Positions 3,822 to 26,395 of a stretch of 55,813 bases of DNA are shown here, in pieces. The DNA is from Candidatus Krumholzibacteriota bacterium (lineage in GTDB: Bacteria; Krumholzibacteriota; Krumholzibacteriia; JAJRXK01). Within the stretch, counting starts at the first letter, position 1. The number at the start of each line of letters is the position of its first letter. The notes under the pieces are model-generated. The model worked only from the letters and a program-made list of their open reading frames with translations. It searched no databases and was not told the DNA's origin. Location: positions 1-55,813 of the forward strand of contig JAJDAC010000055.1 in the NCBI GenBank assembly GCA_029262065.1. The letters run 5' to 3'. A program made the position numbers and the translations under genes.

Positions 3822-6458
3822 CTACTCCGAATCCAACTGCCAACCCCGCACCAGCACCGCGCTCTTCGCCGCCGCCTCTCCCGTAAGCTGGTTCAACAAG
3901 AACCGGTTGGGCTCCGGCCCCACGTCATAATATAGATTGCGGCGCAATCGAACCGGGAACAGTACCTCGGGGGTGCCGATGGGGCTGCGATCGGTAGCGT
4001 CCATGTCGATGGCGACCGCCATCATCTTTCGGCTGGGACTTACGTAGTACAGCTCGAGCCCGTCGGCGCGCCACTCGGGATGCGCACCACCGCCGTCGTC
4101 CGAAACACGAAAGCGTTCGCGTCGGTCGGGAAAACTCTCGATCCAGACATGTTGGCCGTCCTCATGGTCACTGTGGTACGCAACCCATCGCCCGTCGGGC
4201 GAGAAACACGCATAGTTCTGCGTGCCAGCCAGGTCTAGCCAAACCTGCTCTTCGAGCGTATCCAGATCCAGAAGACGCAGTTCGCGACCGCGGCCGCCGT
4301 CTGGTTGACCCCGTAGGAGAAGTTGACCGGTCTGGGGATGTATATCCTGGGGACGACGTGCGGTGCCGTCGCTGATCAATTCCACGATGGCCGGGGTTCC
4401 GACAACGTCCACGCGAAGCAGGTCGACGCCACGGAAGAAATAGATGCTCTTGTCATCCCGCGACCATAGCGGAGCCGACTCGTCGATGGGATGGTCGGTG
4501 AAACGTACCGACGACCGACGACCGAAATCGTACACCCATATGTCGCCGCCCGTTTCCGGTTCGGAGTTGTCGAATGCCACACGACGGCCATCGTGTGAAA
4601 CATCCATCGAGTACAGATCGCCCACGTAGTTCAGCCGGTCAACGAGTTTGCCCTGTCGATCGACCCAGACGAGTTCCGAATCACTGGCGCCGGCCTCACC
4701 TTCCAGATAGAGCAAGGTGCCGTCACCGCCTACGGTCATGAACGCCTGGCTGGGAAAAGTCTTGGTTCGCACCGGGCCACCGATACGAACCGGGTCTCCC
4801 TGCAGGTTCCTGGTGGCCAGATTGAACCGCTGAGCGAAAATGCGCTGCTCGCGGCGAAAAACGATCGCGCCCTGACTTTCGACCCACTGGGCATTGGAGG
4901 CATGCTTCAAAATCTGGCGCGCCTCGCCGTTCTCGAACACGTAGATTCCCGTAAGGTCGCTTCCGTCGAAGTAGTCGGCAGAGAACATGATTGCTCCGCC
5001 GGGGAGCACATCGGCGTGACTGAAGGCCGAGTCGAATTCCTCTACGCTGTAGATCAGCTGGGTTTCGCCCCCGGTCTCCTCTACACGGTGGATATTGGCT
5101 CCGTTGTCGTTGTCGAGTAGCACGATCCAGCCGTCGGTGTGCCAGGTCGCGTCCATGGCCCACGAGTTCAAGCGGACGATCTCACGCTCGATGATCCCGT
5201 CTTCGACGCCGATGATCGACAGGGCCCCCGCAACAAAGAACCCGAGTCGTGTTCCATCGGGAGACCAGAACGGAATCTCGCCGTCTTCGGTGCCGTCCAG
5301 GCGCCGCAATTCGCCGGTGCCCAGATTGCGTACGTAGATCCACCGGTTTCCGTCGCCGTCCAGGCCCGCAAATGCGAGTCGATCGCCGTCGGGCGAAAGC
5401 TCCAGGTGGACCCCACCGGTGTCGTATCCCAGATCGGGGCCAGCCACCAGATCGGCCTGGGTCCGAACGGTGGGAGCGGTCGTCTCCGGCGACCGACTCA
5501 GACCCCACACGATGGCCGCGGCGGCAGTGGTGATAGCAAGCGCGGCCACGATCCAAGGAACCAGCGAAGAAGAGGTCCCAGTGTCATCGGCGCCTGCGAA
5601 CTGGGCGCCTTCCGGCTGACTGAGCGCAACGCGCGCCTCGCCGATGTCACGCAGACGCGTCACCGGATCGCGGTCGAGACACCGCTCGAGAATTCGCCTC
5701 ACGTTCGTGGGCGTTTTCTTGGGCAGCCGCTCCCAATCGATTTCACTCTTCATCACGTCGGCCATGGTCTCGCTGGCCGTTTCACCGTGGAACAGACGCT
5801 CGCCGGTAAGTAGTTCGAACAGGATGACGCCGTACGACCAGATGTCGGCGCGGCGATCGACCGACTTGCCCTTGGCCTGCTCGGGGCTCATGTACGCGGC
5901 GGTACCGAGAATGACGCCCATCTGCGTGAGGCCGGCGGTGATCGTGGGCGAGTTGAGGATATCACTCTCGTCGATGGAGTCGCCGGTGAACGCCCGCGCC
6001 AGGCCAAAGTCGAGCACCTTGATTTCGCCGCCGGGCGTGAGTTTGATGTTGGCCGGCTTGAGATCGCGATGCATGACGTTGTTGTCGTGCGCGAACTCAA
6101 GGCCTTCGGCCAATTGGATGGCAATGGCCACCACGTCGTCCACGGGCAGTGCGCCACCCTGCTCGAGTCGCTCGGCCAGGTCGTGGCCCTCGACCAGCTC
6201 CATGACCAGGATGGTCATACCGTCGATCTCTTCGATGCCAAAGAGCGACGCAATGCGGGGATGGTGCAGGCTGGCGAGCGTACGGGCCTCGCGGCGGAAA
6301 CGCGCGAGTCGTTCGGTGTCGCCCGCGAGCTCCGGGGGAAGGAGCTTCAGGGCGACCTGGCGGCCCAGCTTCGTGTCGTTGGCCCGATAGACCTCGCCCA
6401 TCCCCCCCTTGCCGAGGAGGTCGACGACTTCGTAGTGAGCGAGGGTTCGGCCGATCAA
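3822..6458 (-). CDS. Membrane-spanning Ser/Thr protein kinase with C-terminal beta-propeller
   Basis: An 878-residue PknB-type kinase. The cytoplasmic kinase domain (1-280) has the glycine loop GKGGMGEVY, Lys38 (VALKLL), HRD at 130-132 followed by LKPAN, DFG at 150-152 and a SPEQ element, so it looks catalytically intact. One transmembrane helix (about 299-320) leads to an external region of WD40/TolB-like repeats (repeated SPDG, DGR and W.RDD turns), a layout typical of sensor kinases that read envelope signals. The start is TTG at 6458, preceded by AGGAAA; the protein then begins IGRTLAHYEV, matching where the family normally starts. It diverges from the second kinase at 7653, with a lipoprotein gene between them. 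The signal and the substrates are unknown. Confidence 0.93.
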   Translation of the reverse strand: MIGRTLAHYEVVDLLGKGGMGEVYRANDTKLGRQVALKLLPPELAGDTERLARFRREARTLASLHHPRIASLFGIEEIDGMTILVMELVEGHDLAERLEQGGALPVDDVVAIAIQLAEGLEFAHDNNVMHRDLKPANIKLTPGGEIKVLDFGLARAFTGDSIDESDILNSPTITAGLTQMGVILGTAAYMSPEQAKGKSVDRRADIWSYGVILFELLTGERLFHGETASETMADVMKSEIDWERLPKKTPTNVRRILERCLDRDPVTRLRDIGEARVALSQPEGAQFAGADDTGTSSSLVPWIVAALAITTAAAAIVWGLSRSPETTAPTVRTQADLVAGPDLGYDTGGVHLELSPDGDRLAFAGLDGDGNRWIYVRNLGTGELRRLDGTEDGEIPFWSPDGTRLGFFVAGALSIIGVEDGIIEREIVRLNSWAMDATWHTDGWIVLLDNDNGANIHRVEETGGETQLIYSVEEFDSAFSHADVLPGGAIMFSADYFDGSDLTGIYVFENGEARQILKHASNAQWVESQGAIVFRREQRIFAQRFNLATRNLQGDPVRIGGPVRTKTFPSQAFMTVGGDGTLLYLEGEAGASDSELVWVDRQGKLVDRLNYVGDLYSMDVSHDGRRVAFDNSEPETGGDIWVYDFGRRSSVRFTDHPIDESAPLWSRDDKSIYFFRGVDLLRVDVVGTPAIVELISDGTARRPQDIHPQTGQLLLRGQPDGGRGRELRLLDLDTLEEQVWLDLAGTQNYACFSPDGRWVAYHSDHEDGQHVWIESFPDRRERFRVSDDGGGAHPEWRADGLELYYVSPSRKMMAVAIDMDATDRSPIGTPEVLFPVRLRRNLYYDVGPEPNRFLLNQLTGEAAAKSAVLVRGWQLDSE

Positions 6459-19374: not shown

Positions 19375-21633
19375 ATGTCCGATCCAGACGACATCTACGG
19401 CCAACCCACCCGGCCCGGCTCCGCGCCGATCGACGAGACGCACCCAGTGTCGCGTCCGGCCTCACTCGTAGGCCAATCCATCGGCCCCTACAAGCTGCGC
19501 GAAGAAATCGGTGAGGGCGGAATGGGCATTGTGTACGTGGCCGAACGCGAAACGCCGTTTCGCCAGCGCGTGGCCCTCAAAGTCATCAAACCGGGCATGG
19601 ACAGCCGCGATGTAATTGCCCGTTTCTCGGCCGAGCGCCAAGCGTTGGCACTCATGGAGCACCCGAATATCGCCAAGGTGCTCGACGCCGGGTCCACCGA
19701 GTCCGGCCACCCCTACTTCGTCATGGAACTGGTGCGGGGAATCGCCGTGACCGACTACTGCGACCAGAAGCGTCTGACCATCCGTGAGCGCGCCAAGCTC
19801 TTCATCCAGATTTGCCAGGCCATTCAGCATGCCCACCAGAAGGGCGTCATCCACCGCGACATCAAACCCAGCAACGTGCTGGTAACCGAACACGACGGCC
19901 AACCGGTTCCCAAGATCATCGACTTCGGCGTGGCCAAGGCCATGAACCAGCCCCTGACTGAAAACTCGATCTACACCATGCACCGCCAGGTCGTGGGCAC
20001 GGTGCAGTACATGAGCCCCGAGCAGTCGGAACTGAGCGGCGTGGATATCGACACGCGCAGCGATGTGTACGCCCTGGGCCTATTGCTCTACGAACTCATC
20101 ACCAGCACACTACCGTTCGATCAACATAGCTTCGACCAGGCCTCGTTCGACGAAAAGCGTCGGATCATCCGCGAGGACGAGCCGGCGCGCCCCAGCCTGC
20201 GCGTCTCCAGCCTGGGCAACACGGCCACCGAGGTATCGCAGCGTCGGCGAACCGACGCGAGCCATCTTCGCAAGGAACTGAGTGGCGATCTCGATTGGAT
20301 CGTCATGCGTTCGCTGGAAAAAGACCGTTCACGGCGGTACGAATCTGCCATTGCCATGGCCCGCGATGTAGAGCGATTCCTGAACGATGAACCGGTTCTG
20401 GCGGGCCCCCCTTCTGTGAGTTATCGCGCCGGTAAATTCCTGCGTCGAAATCGCGGAGCGGTGCTCGCCGCCAGTGTGATAGCCGTATTGGCAGTGGGGC
20501 TTGGATCCTGGGCAATTACCAACCAGGCCCAACGGCGATCGGAAATGGCAGTCGCCACGAACCGACTCTCAGATGCAATCGAGCAGGCGTCGCTGGATCT
20601 TGGCCGTGCCGTAAGCGCTCCCATTGGTCACGAGGACGATTGGATCGAGGCGCGCGCCAGCCGACAACGGGTGCTGGACCTATTGAACAGCGCCACCGCC
20701 GGCACGACCGTGTCGACGCGAGCCCGGCGCTTCATTGCCACCTTCGACCGGTCCAGTGCCGAACGCGACCTGGCCAAGCAGATCGAAGACATCCTCATAA
20801 CGCAGGCTACGCACACCGACCTGGCCAAGTGGTCAGAAATGGAAGAGCAGCTACGCGACGTGTTCAGGCAGCGCGGCATCGATTTCGACCAGCTCACGCC
20901 GACCGAGGTATCGGATCGAATTCGTGCACACGAGTCGGCGGTACGACTGTCCGATGCTCTTGAGTTGTGGATCGCCACCCGTGCGCAGATGTCGGGCATG
21001 GGCGGCCCCAAAGCCACGCGCGCAACCATGGAGCCCTGGGCCAACGCTCTGTACCGGGCCGATCCAGATCCTCTGCGCCACGGCATCCGGAAAGTCATCT
21101 ACGAGCGAAAGGGCGCGACGAGAGTCGAACTCGAGGCACTCATCGGTGACCTGGACCTGAGCTTGGTGCATGTGCGAACTCTCTCGTGGCTCGGGATCGC
21201 GTTCCTGATTGCCGGTGAGCCACAGCGATCGGAAGAAATCCACAAGCTCGCCCTGCAATTGCATCCCGATGACCTCATGATGAACCATGACTTCGCCGCG
21301 TCGCTGGGTGCGCAACAGGACTGGAACAAGGCCATTCGGTACTACATGCGGTGCACGGCCATCCGCCCCGACGTGGCTGGAGTCTGGAGTTCCCTGGGCG
21401 ACGCGTACCGGGAGAACGGAGAACTCACCTCGGCCCGCGAGGCGCTGGAGTATTCGTTGGAGCTGAGTCCCACCTCGGCGTCCGCGTTCGCCGGTCTCGG
21501 ACGAACGCTCATGGACCTGGGCAAGTACGACGACGCCCTCGTGGCGCTGGAACGATGTCGGAAATTACTGGGCGACCAGGTCCCCCAGATTCCTCTTGAG
21601 GAGTGGTTGACCGAGTGCAGAAACAAGCTCTGA
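19375..21633 (+). CDS. Ser/Thr protein kinase with C-terminal TPR region
   Basis: A 752-residue kinase of the class common in Planctomycetes and related bacteria. After a 30-residue Pro-rich leader the kinase domain has GEGGMGIVY, Lys69 (VALKVI), HRD 160-162 with IKPSN, DFG 183-185 and SPEQ, all intact. A transmembrane helix near 365-384 (AVLAASVIAVLAVGLGSWAI) is followed by coiled segments and TPR-like helices toward the C-terminus (PDVAGVWSSLGDAYRENGELTSAREALEY, PTSASAFAGLGRTLMDLGKYDDALVAL). No good ribosome site precedes the ATG. The stop TGA (21631-21633) shares its A with the next ATG, so the downstream deacetylase-M20 gene is probably translationally coupled. Confidence 0.92.
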   Translation: MSDPDDIYGQPTRPGSAPIDETHPVSRPASLVGQSIGPYKLREEIGEGGMGIVYVAERETPFRQRVALKVIKPGMDSRDVIARFSAERQALALMEHPNIAKVLDAGSTESGHPYFVMELVRGIAVTDYCDQKRLTIRERAKLFIQICQAIQHAHQKGVIHRDIKPSNVLVTEHDGQPVPKIIDFGVAKAMNQPLTENSIYTMHRQVVGTVQYMSPEQSELSGVDIDTRSDVYALGLLLYELITSTLPFDQHSFDQASFDEKRRIIREDEPARPSLRVSSLGNTATEVSQRRRTDASHLRKELSGDLDWIVMRSLEKDRSRRYESAIAMARDVERFLNDEPVLAGPPSVSYRAGKFLRRNRGAVLAASVIAVLAVGLGSWAITNQAQRRSEMAVATNRLSDAIEQASLDLGRAVSAPIGHEDDWIEARASRQRVLDLLNSATAGTTVSTRARRFIATFDRSSAERDLAKQIEDILITQATHTDLAKWSEMEEQLRDVFRQRGIDFDQLTPTEVSDRIRAHESAVRLSDALELWIATRAQMSGMGGPKATRATMEPWANALYRADPDPLRHGIRKVIYERKGATRVELEALIGDLDLSLVHVRTLSWLGIAFLIAGEPQRSEEIHKLALQLHPDDLMMNHDFAASLGAQQDWNKAIRYYMRCTAIRPDVAGVWSSLGDAYRENGELTSAREALEYSLELSPTSASAFAGLGRTLMDLGKYDDALVALERCRKLLGDQVPQIPLEEWLTECRNKL

Positions 21634-23783
21634 TGCCCAGTGGGGCTCGATTTCGATTGCAGACGATGCTGATCGCCGTGGCGTTGATCGTGTTCGTGCT
21701 CTTCGCAACGGCAGCGTCCGCCCAGAAGCGCATCGCCATCAGCTTCGACGATGTTCCACGCCATGCCGGTGGATTCTTCACGCCCGACGAACGAACACAC
21801 GAATTGATTGCGGCGCTGAAGCGGGCCGGCGTGAAGCAAGCGGGTTTCTTCGTGACCACGGGAAACCTGGACAAGCCCGACGGCGAAGGTGGTGAGGTGC
21901 GCATAGGCGCCTACGTTGCGGCCGGCCATGTCCTGGGCAACCACTCGACCACCCACCCCTGGCTATCGCGTACCGATGTGGAGGCGTATCTGGCCGACAT
22001 CGACGGTGCCGAGGCATGGTTGGCGAATCGCCCGGGCCGGCGCGGCTGGTTTCGCTATCCGTATCTGGATGAGGGCCGACGCGATCTCGAGAAGCGCGAC
22101 GCCATCCGGCGGGGACTGGATGAGCGCGGGCTGTTGAACGCCTACGTGACCGTGGACAACTACGACTGGCACATGGACTCGCTGGCCTCGAGGGCGCGCA
22201 AGGAAGGCACGCCCATGAGCATGGATGGGCTGCGTGATCTATATGTGGAAACGCTACTGCAAGCCTCCAACTTCTACGAAGACATTGCCGTGAAAGCGTT
22301 GGGGCGATCGCCGATCCATGTAATCCTGCTCCACGAAACCGATCTGGCCGCGCTGTTCATCGAAGATTTCGTGGCGGCGCTGCGCGCGGACGGCTGGGAC
22401 ATCGCCACCTTGGATGAGGCGTACGCAGACCCCATGGCGTCAAGCGAACCCGATACATGGTTTTTGGGGAGCGGCCGGGTTGCGGCCTTGGCCCATCTGC
22501 AAGGCTGGGAGCCACGCGATCTGGTCCACGAAAGAACCGACGAAGAGGTGTTGAACGGGCTGTTCGTTGCGCGCGTGCTCGAGCCAGCCAACAATCAGAA
22601 ACGCCAAGCAGAATCCGATGACCTGACGTCACGATTCAACGAAGGTGTGGAATCACGCCGCAGTGAGCTCATCGCTTTCCGTCGCGACCTGCATCGCAAT
22701 CCCGAGACGTCGGGAAACGAAGAACGCACTTCGCAAGCCGTGGCCCGCGAGCTGGAACGCCTGGGGCTCACCGTCACCACGGGAGTCGGTGGCCATGGTG
22801 TCGTGGCGATTCTGGAAGGAGCCCAGCCCGGCCCCACCGTGGCATTTCGCGCCGACATGGACGCCGTGCCGTCCAGCGCGCCCGACCCGGTCGAGTTCCG
22901 GTCCGAGATCCCGGGAGTGCGGCACATCTGTGGGCACGACATCCACACCACCATTGGACTCGCGTTGGCCGAGGGTTTCGTCGCTATTCGCGAGTCTTTG
23001 GCGGGATCGGTCATGTTTGTGTTCCAACCGGCGGAAGAGAGTGCAACAGGCGCTCGGGCGATGCTGGCCGACGGGGCCCTGGACCAACGGAAGCCCGACG
23101 CGATCTACGCGGTCCACACGGCACCCATGCCCGTGGGACATTTGATCACGGCACCTGGAACCCTGATGGCGTGGCGAGATCGCGTGGAAGTCACGGTCAC
23201 GGGCAGCGACGATCTCAAGACAGTAGCCGACGGAATCCGCACCGCTATCGATGGCGTCGGAACGATTTCCCCCGCCCAGGCTGGCGCTCCGGCATCGGGT
23301 GATTTCCGCTTCGTTCAATCGCGTACCCCAACCCAGATTGCCAGCGACGGCTGGACTGTCTCGGCGTCGATTTCGGTGGCGACCGCGGATGCCAGCAATG
23401 AAGCGAAGCGACGTATCGAGGACTACCTGGGATCCATCGAGCGTGAAGGACTGCACACCAGTCTGACCTACGAGCACAAGTGGATCGCTGGCGTCACCAA
23501 CGAACCCGCGCTAACCGAAGCGGCTATCAAGAGTGCACAAAGGGCCCTGACGGAACCGGGGGTTTCCGTGACCGACAACGTCATCCCCATGTTCAGCGAG
23601 GACTTCGGGTCGTTCCAGCAGGTTGTGCCCGGCGTAATGTTCTTCCTGGGCGTATCGAACGCCGAGAAAGGCTGGGTCGGAATGCCGCACACGCCAGACT
23701 ACGTGGCCGACGAGGAAGCTATTTTTGTCGGCGCGCGCACCATGGGCGCCGTGCTCCTGGATTTTCTCAGGGCGTCACACTGA
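21633..23783 (+). CDS. Exported fusion: polysaccharide deacetylase (NodB) plus M20 amidohydrolase
   Basis: A 716-residue protein. I take the ATG at 21633 (stop/start overlap TGATG with the kinase) because a signal peptide follows (TMLIAVALIVFVLFATAASAQ). Residues 30-280 are a NodB-type carbohydrate esterase with all motifs: SFDDVP (metal and base Asp), NHSTTHP (metal His pair), RYPYLDEG and LLHETD. Residues about 330-716 are an M20D domain with RADMDAVP, HICGHDIHTT, FQPAEES, AVHTAP and MPHTP. Its lid again lacks the GGH.A.P segment (VTVTGSDDLKTVAD), like the paralogue at 17947. One polypeptide could remove acetyl and then another acyl group from an amino sugar or muropeptide; that coupling is inference. 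It ends 17 bp inside the convergent selenoprotein gene. Confidence 0.9.
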   Translation: MPSGARFRLQTMLIAVALIVFVLFATAASAQKRIAISFDDVPRHAGGFFTPDERTHELIAALKRAGVKQAGFFVTTGNLDKPDGEGGEVRIGAYVAAGHVLGNHSTTHPWLSRTDVEAYLADIDGAEAWLANRPGRRGWFRYPYLDEGRRDLEKRDAIRRGLDERGLLNAYVTVDNYDWHMDSLASRARKEGTPMSMDGLRDLYVETLLQASNFYEDIAVKALGRSPIHVILLHETDLAALFIEDFVAALRADGWDIATLDEAYADPMASSEPDTWFLGSGRVAALAHLQGWEPRDLVHERTDEEVLNGLFVARVLEPANNQKRQAESDDLTSRFNEGVESRRSELIAFRRDLHRNPETSGNEERTSQAVARELERLGLTVTTGVGGHGVVAILEGAQPGPTVAFRADMDAVPSSAPDPVEFRSEIPGVRHICGHDIHTTIGLALAEGFVAIRESLAGSVMFVFQPAEESATGARAMLADGALDQRKPDAIYAVHTAPMPVGHLITAPGTLMAWRDRVEVTVTGSDDLKTVADGIRTAIDGVGTISPAQAGAPASGDFRFVQSRTPTQIASDGWTVSASISVATADASNEAKRRIEDYLGSIEREGLHTSLTYEHKWIAGVTNEPALTEAAIKSAQRALTEPGVSVTDNVIPMFSEDFGSFQQVVPGVMFFLGVSNAEKGWVGMPHTPDYVADEEAIFVGARTMGAVLLDFLRASH

Positions 23784-24513
23784 GCTTTGGTTCCTGCCCC
23801 AATTCAGCGAACTCCGCAAGCCACGCTTCTGTCTGCTTGAGAGCCGGGACGAAGCCAAACGGTCCCTCCTTGGCGGCCACGGCCAAACGGCCGTCGGTAC
23901 GCACCACGAAGACCCGGTCGGGCCAGCCGCTGTAGGCCAGGTTCGTGGTGTTCTCCATGTTGTCCACGACGCAAGGAACGGTAAGGCTCTTGTCTTCCAG
24001 CAATGACTTGGCGCTGGTGCAACGAGCTTCAAACGAAATATGTTCGAGCAGTTGTTTTTCTTTTGCGTACGGCACTGCCCACTTGCTGTCGGCCGCGTGG
24101 GCTTCGTTGATATAGACGATGCGAAACTCGGCAATGTTCTGGTAGGTCTCGTACATCCGCTGCATTTCGGCAACCTGCCGAAGAAATGGCGGTCAGGTGT
24201 AGCTCCCGAAGAAGAGAACAACCGGCCTCTTGCCGCGAAACGCCACCAGGCTCGTGCGAGAAGTTTCATCGATCGACGGCAGGTCGAAATCGGGCGCCAA
24301 GTCGCCGACGACCAGCTCCTCGGCGCGACCAACGTTGTTTTCCTTGATGTGTTCCAACTGGGTCTCAGACAAGCCATGAAGGTTGTCGGGGGCGCCGGCT
24401 TCGGGCTTAGCATCGGTCTCAGCAACGGGTTTGGGCTTGTACGCCCCGGTGCGTTCCTGGGCCAGGACCAGGCCGGGAACCAAGAGGACGATCAGGGCGA
24501 GATACCACTTCAT
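23767..24513 (-). CDS. Iodothyronine-deiodinase-like thioredoxin-fold selenoprotein (in-frame UGA = Sec107)
   Basis: A 248-residue exported protein whose frame is interrupted only by one UGA at 24193-24195. Before it the product reads MKWYLALIVLLVPGLVLAQ (signal peptide; ATG 24513 after GGAGTGTCC), then GDLAPDFDLPSI and PVVLFFGSYT. After it the same frame continues PPFLRQVAEMQ, IVYINEAHAADSKW, VPCVVDNMENTT and WPDRVFVV to a stop at 23767. GSYT-U-PPF plus Y(I)NEAHA.D.W matches deiodinases, whose active site is a selenocysteine in the same place. The codon is therefore read as Sec, helped by the hairpin at 24157-24192. Bacterial members are thought to be redox enzymes; the substrate is unknown. 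Routine gene calling would split it into two. Confidence 0.88.
24157..24192 (-). promoter_or_regulatory. Bacterial SECIS hairpin directly after the UGA
   Basis: On the minus strand the mRNA after UGA folds into UUCGGCA (24182-24176), a GGU apical loop, and UGCCGAA (24172-24166). This is a perfect 7-bp stem with its loop 18-20 nt after the UGA. A lower CCAU/AUG and CCGC/GCGG stem extends to 24157. The position, the short loop and the GGU match the E. coli fdhF-type SECIS (GCAGGUCUGC), the binding site of SelB. It lies inside the coding sequence, as bacterial SECIS elements do. Confidence 0.8.
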
Positions 24514-24593
24514 GGACACTCCAAGCGGGAAAGGACGACCGAACGACAAACGAATGACACAGTCTAGCGGAAGGGCATATTGCGTGGAGTATA

Positions 24594-25874
24594 TCAGATC
24601 GTGGCCCGCTTGCTTTGGGCGACCCGGTGCCATAGCGCGCCCAACGCCAGGAGCCCCAGACCAGCTCCCCAGATCCGCGGCTCCACCCAGAACGCCAGGA
24701 AACCGCAACTCGCCAGCCCACAGATTGACCAGAGCCGCGAGTACAGACGCTGTTCGGATTGCAAACGCAGCGCAGCGAGGTTCGTGAGCGCATAGTAGAC
24801 CAGCACTGTGAAGGCGCTGAAGCTCCAGGCCGTCTTGATGCTACCGATAAGCGTGAGCCCCAGGATGATGCCGCCCACCACGAACACGGCTACCACCGGC
24901 GAAGACCGACGTTCGTCGATACGAGTGACGCCCTTGGGCATATCGCCTCTTCGGCCCATGGCCAACAACACGCGCGACAGACCCAAGAGAAGATTCAACA
25001 AGACACCGGCCATGGCGGTAACTGCGCCTACCGCGATGACCAGGGGCAGCCCGGGAATACCGAACTGGCGCGATACCACTTCCAAGGGTGCTCCCTGGAC
25101 CTGGGTGGCGCGAAACAAAGCTTCGCTACCCACCGCTCCCACGCCCACCGTGGCTACCGCCAGGTAGAGAAACGCCGACGCCAACAGCGTGGCCACAATG
25201 GCCTTTGGAATGGTTCGCCGCGGATCGCGGACTTCTTCGCCAAGGGTCGCTACCCGGCCGTAACCCGTGTAGGCCACGAACATGAGCGCAGTTGCTTCCA
25301 ACAGGGTGCGCACGGAAGGGCGGACGAACTCCAACTCACCCCAATTCGAAACCGCGCGGGAGAAGCCTCCGGCCACGAAGGCCGCGAGGGCCAGCACCGT
25401 AATGGTCACGACGACGGCGTTGACCGCGTTGCTACGCCGCAGGCCTCCCGCCACCAAGAGCGTGAGGGCCATGACCACGGCGGCTCCAACCCCCACCTGG
25501 ACGCGATGATTGTCGACACCCAACACGTTCAGGAAGTACCCCGAGAAACCCAGCGCCGCGGTTGCGGCCGACGCGCTCTTGGCGCACAGGAACATCCACC
25601 CCGCCGTGAATCCAGCCATGGGATGCAGGAGTTGGTAACCGTATTCGTAGGTGCCACCGCTGCGCGGATACGCCGCCGCCAGTTGAGCGCTGCTAAGGGC
25701 GTTACAGGTAGCCACGAACGCAGCCGCCAACACCACGAATGGAGTCCACGCTTCCGCGAGCCCCGTGACCAAACCGATGCTCACGAAAACGCCAGTTCCC
25801 AGAATGGAACCCAGGCCCAGCAGCGTCGCACTGGGGATGCCAAGTTCGCGTCGAAGTGACTGCGGGTCGGTCAT
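24594..25874 (-). CDS. APC-superfamily amino-acid permease
   Basis: A 426-residue polytopic membrane protein with about 12 hydrophobic helices. The opening [24 protein letters not shown] is the conserved first helix of APC amino-acid/polyamine transporters, and [18 protein letters not shown] is the second signature (A..P..GG.Y.Y). Substrate cannot be read from sequence, although amino-acid/H+ symport or exchange is usual. AAGGA precedes the ATG. Its start codon overlaps the stop of the truncated kinase frame upstream (TCATG on the plus strand at 25871-25875), and 80 bp separate its stop from the selenoprotein start, so the three may form one transcript. Confidence 0.9.
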
Positions 25875-26395
25875 GGGGTCCTTGTAGATTGGCGAACGTG
25901 ATCATTCACCACGCTGAAGTTCATCCAGCGAAGCGCGGAACATCTCGGCCCGTTGGCCTTCTGATGCGCGTGTTGCACGCCATCGCAAACCTGCTGAAAC
26001 AGCTTTAATCGTTCGCGCATATCCAGCCGTTGGCGATCACAGTATTTGGTAATCGTCAGGCCCTGGATGTATTCCATAACCAGATAAGGACGACCGCGCG
26101 GAGTGGCACCGGCGTCGTAGACCCTGGCCACGCAGGGGTGGTTCATGAGCGCAAGCGCCTGCCGTTCGGCCTCGAACCGCGCGATGAACTCCTTGGTGTC
26201 CATGCCCCGCTTGATGATCTTCAGGGCTACCTTGCGCTTCACCGGTTCCTGCTGCTCGGCCAGCCAAACCTCGCCCATGCCACCTTCGCCGATTTTCTGT
26301 TGAAGCAGATACGGTCCAATACGATTCGGAACCGTCGAGCCGGACGAATCCACGGTGGAGTCGAAATTCTCGGTGGGTGGTTCTCTGTCGCTCAT
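25871..26395 (-). pseudogene. Ser/Thr protein kinase truncated before the catalytic loop
   Basis: The 174-residue frame begins like the kinase-TPR gene at 19375: acidic leader, then [22 protein letters not shown], Lys58 (VALKII), [19 protein letters not shown] and the helix [10 protein letters not shown]. Exactly where HRDIKPSN should follow (after residue 146) the sequence becomes unrelated ([11 protein letters not shown]...) and stops 28 codons later. The catalytic loop, DFG, C-lobe and any sensor domain are gone, so it cannot phosphorylate. The stop overlaps the APC permease start. It is either a deletion remnant or, less likely, a retained ATP-binding pseudo-kinase fragment. Confidence 0.75.

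Follow-up and report, generated by a model that had tools for sequence, protein, structure and literature searches.

Deiodinase-like selenoproteins (PF00837) have been known in bacteria since the Sargasso Sea study of 2005, and were found in GOS as well (PMC1088965, PMC2398784, PMC13188914). The authors of the 2005 study argued for a general redox role, thyroid hormones being unexpected in bacteria (PMC1088965). For the animal enzymes, the roles of the active-site residues of Dio3 have been assigned (PMC7506546), and further descriptions of Dio3 residues are available (PMC11592359). The published model of the bacterial SECIS element specifies a stem of 4-16 bp, a loop of 3-9 nt with an early G, and a spacing of 16-37 nt (PMC13188914).

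Here we describe a member of this family encoded in the window, by which we mean the whole stretch of 55,813 nucleotides that was analysed, from a Candidatus Krumholzibacteriota bacterium. We put the probability that the minus-strand segment 24513-23767 is a selenoprotein gene of the deiodinase-like family PF00837 at roughly 95%, a figure that leaves the substrate aside. The first-pass annotation had called a bacterial selenocysteine-containing deiodinase-like enzyme unusual, which was an overstatement, given that PF00837 has been a listed bacterial selenoprotein family since 2005. What is new is the host lineage, the animal-like UPPF motif, the linkage to a Sec cassette in relatives, and the commonness of the Sec form in Planctomycetota; a text search of the literature, partial in its coverage, found no paper describing the Planctomycetota group.

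A reading frame interrupted by a conserved UGA

Translation of minus-strand positions 24513-23767 gave one 248-codon frame in which the sole in-frame UGA, at 24195-24193, is codon 107, and the next stop past it lies at 23767-23769. The two open reading frames 24513-24193 and 24192-23767 are thus, as had been proposed, the same frame separated by a single UGA (Table 1). The codon stands in the context GSYT-U-PPFLRQ, and EAHAADSKW follows downstream in the read-through protein. In all protein comparisons the programs treated the UGA as Cys. The read-through protein matched the Pfam family T4_deiodinase (PF00837) over residues 67-223 with 115.1 bits (4.2e-33), passing the gathering threshold of 27 bits, and gave a second Pfam match to AhpC-TSA (2.4e-8). 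The only strong sequence matches in the PDB were mouse Dio2 (9e-24) and Dio3 (2.5e-20), in which the UGA codon fell exactly on the catalytic Sec, confirming the earlier view that it occupies the deiodinase Sec site and is followed by the EAH...W motif.

Table 1. Positions of the gene, its parts, the adjacent permease and the related gene clusters
Feature	Position	Strand	Remarks
Deiodinase-like selenoprotein gene	23767..24513	-	248 codons plus stop; UGA at codon 107 as Sec
Putative ribosome-binding site GGAG	24519..24522	-	5 nt upstream of the ATG; read from the sequence
Signal-peptide-like N-terminus, MKWYLALIVLLVPGLVLA, then QE	24460..24513	-	First 18 residues; translation reading
Thioredoxin-fold deiodinase domain, ~residues 67-248	23770..24315	-	PF00837 over residues 67-223; fold match over ~residues 61-240
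Selenocysteine UGA codon, residue 107	24193..24195	-	Alignment to the Dio Sec; homologue codons
Bacterial SECIS apical hairpin, 7 bp, GGU loop	24166..24182	-	RNAfold, shuffles, covariation
Amino-acid permease (APC)	24594..25874	-	Ends 80 bp upstream of the selenoprotein ATG; functional link only putative
selD-selB-selA-dio clusters of relatives	L022:1254-6717; L024:1093-6501		Same strand within each cluster

We compared this frame with eight named relatives and with 121 matches from 96 of the 392 sampled genomes of the Planctomycetota, the phylum of the relative L024; about a quarter of the sampled genomes of this phylum therefore carry a match, and most matches have an in-frame UGA. A TGA was found in 108 of the 121 Planctomycetota matches, and two of the 13 without it begin beyond the Sec position. 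All 32 near homologues inspected, from Planctomycetota, have TGA at the codon aligned to 107, and five distant homologues (four proteobacterial and one verrucomicrobial) have TGC or TGT there, so that Cys or Sec occupies this position in each of the 37 homologues inspected. Amino-acid identity past the UGA was 60-65% to two homologues (L022 and L023), comparable to the identity before it, and the nucleotide differences from homologues in this part fall mostly at third codon positions. This indicates that the part beyond the stop is under coding constraint.

The UGA could also be a real stop, with translation restarting downstream to give two separate short proteins, and an ATG 30 nt downstream does open a 132-codon frame (23767-24165). 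However, a stop there would divide the thioredoxin fold right at the catalytic residue. Nearly all close homologues, moreover, have the conserved PPF immediately after this codon, and we consider two separate proteins highly improbable. Standard pipelines would call a selenoprotein gene of this kind broken, and the family is therefore probably under-annotated.

The SECIS hairpin and the decoding machinery

RNAfold predicted the hairpin UUCGGCA-GGU-UGCCGAA after the UGA, with its apical loop beginning 17 nt past the codon. A 7-bp stem with a GGU loop at the SelB distance had been noticed at first pass, and with these dimensions it conforms to the published bacterial SECIS model. Its folding energy, not exceptional in itself, departed only moderately from expectation (z -1.4 to -2.1, with p 0.07 when compared with synonymous-codon shuffles), and the model-scored stem in the SECIS position exceeded protein-preserving synonymous-codon shuffles at p 0.007. 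SECIS-type stems above synonymous shuffles at p<0.05 were present in 20 of 34 UGA genes and in none of six Cys genes. In a gap-free alignment of ten sequences, all seven stem pairs showed two-sided changes, and 87% of cells could pair, compared with at most 53% in slid controls; this figure is biased upwards because four of the ten rows were picked for the same hairpin register, whereas the shuffle test involved no such selection. There appear to be two SECIS registers in the family, with the loop ~17 or ~20-21 nt past the UGA. An Rfam scan of the window gave no match at the gathering threshold.

The machinery that the first-pass annotation had proposed to look for is complete: the window's genome has a tRNA-Sec with anticodon UCA together with selB (354 bits), selA (468 bits) and selD (336 bits). 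The selD gene (L021, G000:C48:88900-89832) contains a UGA of its own, in frame and close to the start (SAAG-U-AAK), and probably encodes a Sec-containing SelD. In the window's phylum selB was found in 73 of the 80 genomes searched, indicating that the Sec trait is native to it. Among the homologues, selB was above the cut-off in all three named UGA-form genomes and in none of the four proteobacterial Cys-form genomes. The verrucomicrobial genome (L027) also has selB above the cut-off, yet its homologue has Cys, so the machinery and the Sec form are not matched one to one. We infer that in the host SelB with Sec-tRNA(Sec) would bind the hairpin just past the UGA, placing Sec at residue 107.

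These data bear on whether the gene is a pseudogene or the TGA a sequencing error for a TGC or TGT Cys codon. For this there is the stop codon itself and nothing else; against it, an identical UGA is found at 32 loci of other genomes, the frame past it is under coding constraint, the SECIS pairs covary and the decoding machinery is present. Recurrence, covariation and constraint refute both possibilities in practice, and we give them hardly any credence.

Gene neighbourhood and distribution among lineages

In two relatives, a Phycisphaerales MAG (L022) and a Planctomycetota MAG (L024), the genes selD-selB-selA are followed on the same strand by the deiodinase-like selenoprotein gene. The selA of L024 is read as two overlapping frames (4011-4559 and 4484-5500), perhaps owing to a frameshift. 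The selenoprotein gene of the window does not follow such a cassette; an APC permease lies 80 bp upstream instead. This neighbour had been pointed out earlier, and the gene is real, but the adjacency is absent at the homologues for which flanks were available. A search of 38 homologue loci, mostly with ~1.5 kb of flank, for neighbours of the APC permease, kinase, rhodanese and M20 types found none that recurred, the sole exception being a weak kinase match at one locus (L059). The permease thus need not belong to the system, and a function shared with it is unsupported.

Two further features surround the gene. A protein-kinase fragment of 174 aa (25871-26395, minus strand) overlaps the start of the permease gene by 4 nt, and the two may be co-translated. 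On the plus strand, a single frame (21603-23783) encodes polysaccharide deacetylase and M20 peptidase domains; it converges on the selenoprotein gene, and the 3' ends of the two overlap by 17 bp.

Elsewhere in the same genome (L002, G000:C58:34780-35391) is a second, Cys-type deiodinase-related protein with the motif GSFSCGVY, a lipoprotein-like start and 65 bits to NF038285; its gene converges on selB. A genome of the same family as the window's (G002) encodes a further probable Sec protein of this superfamily (L019), a lipoprotein-like homologue with GSFT-UGA-PIY that is related to the Cys-type protein. Deiodinase-like genes with an in-frame TGA are present as several paralogues in some Planctomycetota genomes; one of these (G145) has five.

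A strong match to the selenoprotein was found in only one of the 80 genomes searched from the window's phylum, namely the window's own. The tree places the window protein within a set of six whose other members are all from Planctomycetota (support 97/86). This restricted occurrence, together with the nesting among Planctomycetota homologues, suggests that the gene was probably gained laterally from that phylum, a simpler reading than repeated loss. As a test for contamination, the tetranucleotide make-up of the contig was compared with that of its genome, and the two fit: the correlation between window pieces and the remainder of the genome was 0.93-0.94, close to the 0.944 among the genome's own parts, as against ~0.75-0.80 for the Planctomycetota homologue loci. 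The plasmid collection contained no match and the viral contigs no relative, so nothing points to a mobile carrier.

Active site, candidate substrates and relation to known families

For an AlphaFold model whose input was the window protein plus eight relatives, pLDDT was >90 across most of residues 71-190. The solved structures that matched this model best were those of Dio2/Dio3 (9h48, Z 21.0 over 166 residues; 4tr3, Z 20.8 over 173), and other thioredoxin folds, with ResA and AhpE among the next matches, scored Z ~16 or below. Mapping of Dio3 residues by counting from Sec170 in alignments placed Ser167, Thr169, Sec170, Tyr197, Glu200 and His202 at S104, T106, U107, Y134, E137 and H139 of the window protein, and Trp207, His219, Arg225 and Cys239 at W145, H158, R164 and C181. 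The Ser/Thr/Tyr/Glu/His active-site network of the deiodinases is thus present in the window protein. At each of the Dio3 positions Ser167, Thr169, Tyr197, Glu200, His202 and Arg225, at most one of the 33 Sec sequences differs; the His219 position is His in the window protein and Pro in most bacterial relatives. Among the substrate-contacting residues compared, the one that differs is the carboxylate clamp, an Arg or Lys (Arg275 in Dio3), whose replacement by Glu216 makes thyronine-like substrates uncertain.

From its signal-peptide-like start, the product would probably be exported to the cell envelope. There a selenolate in the thioredoxin-fold domain, held by the Ser/Thr/Tyr/Glu/His network, could reduce the substrate, and the enzyme could then be regenerated by thiols.

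As to what is reduced, we see an even prospect that the protein is an exported peroxidase or thiol-disulfide reductase and not a dehalogenase. The second Pfam match to AhpC-TSA, the presence of ResA and AhpE among the next fold matches and the signal-peptide-like start are consistent with such a role, while conservation of the deiodinase-specific network and the EAH loop argues against it. To our knowledge, ordinary peroxiredoxins possess neither this network nor this loop. It is possible, but in our judgement rather unlikely, that the selenoprotein acts as a reductive dehalogenase of halogenated phenols or tyrosines, like the animal deiodinases. In favour of this, the equivalents of the Dio3 Ser, Thr, Tyr, Glu, two His, Arg, loop Trp and distal Cys239 are all retained, and Dio2/Dio3 lead the fold matches by a wide margin; however, the carboxylate clamp is Glu, the second His is Pro in most bacterial relatives, thioredoxin and peroxiredoxin relatives have the same fold, and the general redox argument of the 2005 authors also applies. 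The missing clamp residue speaks against thyronines, and the retained network leaves room for reductive dehalogenation. Overall, a peroxide or an oxidised thiol is somewhat more likely as the substrate than a halogenated phenol.

A broader and quite doubtful proposal is that this cross-phylum bacterial clade, with its near-complete animal-type site and its sometime encoding with the Sec cassette, represents an exported reductive dehalogenase of iodo- or bromo-aromatics near the ancestral deiodinase chemistry. If true, a bacterial dehalogenase clade would sit near the chemistry from which the thyroid-hormone deiodinases arose. Sequences so similar to the animal deiodinases, whose domain is probably soluble and exported, are well suited to studying the role that deiodinases had before the advent of thyroid hormone.

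Among known families, the AhpE/Bcp peroxiredoxins and the ResA/TlpA reductases share the fold class of the window protein and likewise carry a reactive chalcogen where the first helix begins, but match at lower Z (~15-16 versus 21) and are without the EAH motif and the deiodinase loop. NCBIfam NF038285 (deiodinase_rel, 'deiodinase family protein'), a model of a longer protein with 347 positions, aligned over residues 56-224 at 120.1 bits, under its curated cut-off of 250 bits. The known bacterial deiodinase-like selenoproteins are of the same Pfam family and likewise have an active-site Sec and a bacterial SECIS just past the UGA; recent tables list UxxC for them, whereas the window protein has U-P-P-F like the animal enzymes, and comes from a phylum with no other strong match among the 80 genomes searched. 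Animal Dio1-3 have a membrane anchor, in place of which the window protein begins with a signal-peptide-like stretch. It also differs from them in that the Arg275/Lys clamp is Glu, and its gene carries a bacterial SECIS inside the coding region. With these animal enzymes it nevertheless shares the thioredoxin fold, the GSxTUPPF motif, the Tyr, the Glu-Ala-His, the loop Trp, the second His, the distal Cys and a UGA-encoded Sec.
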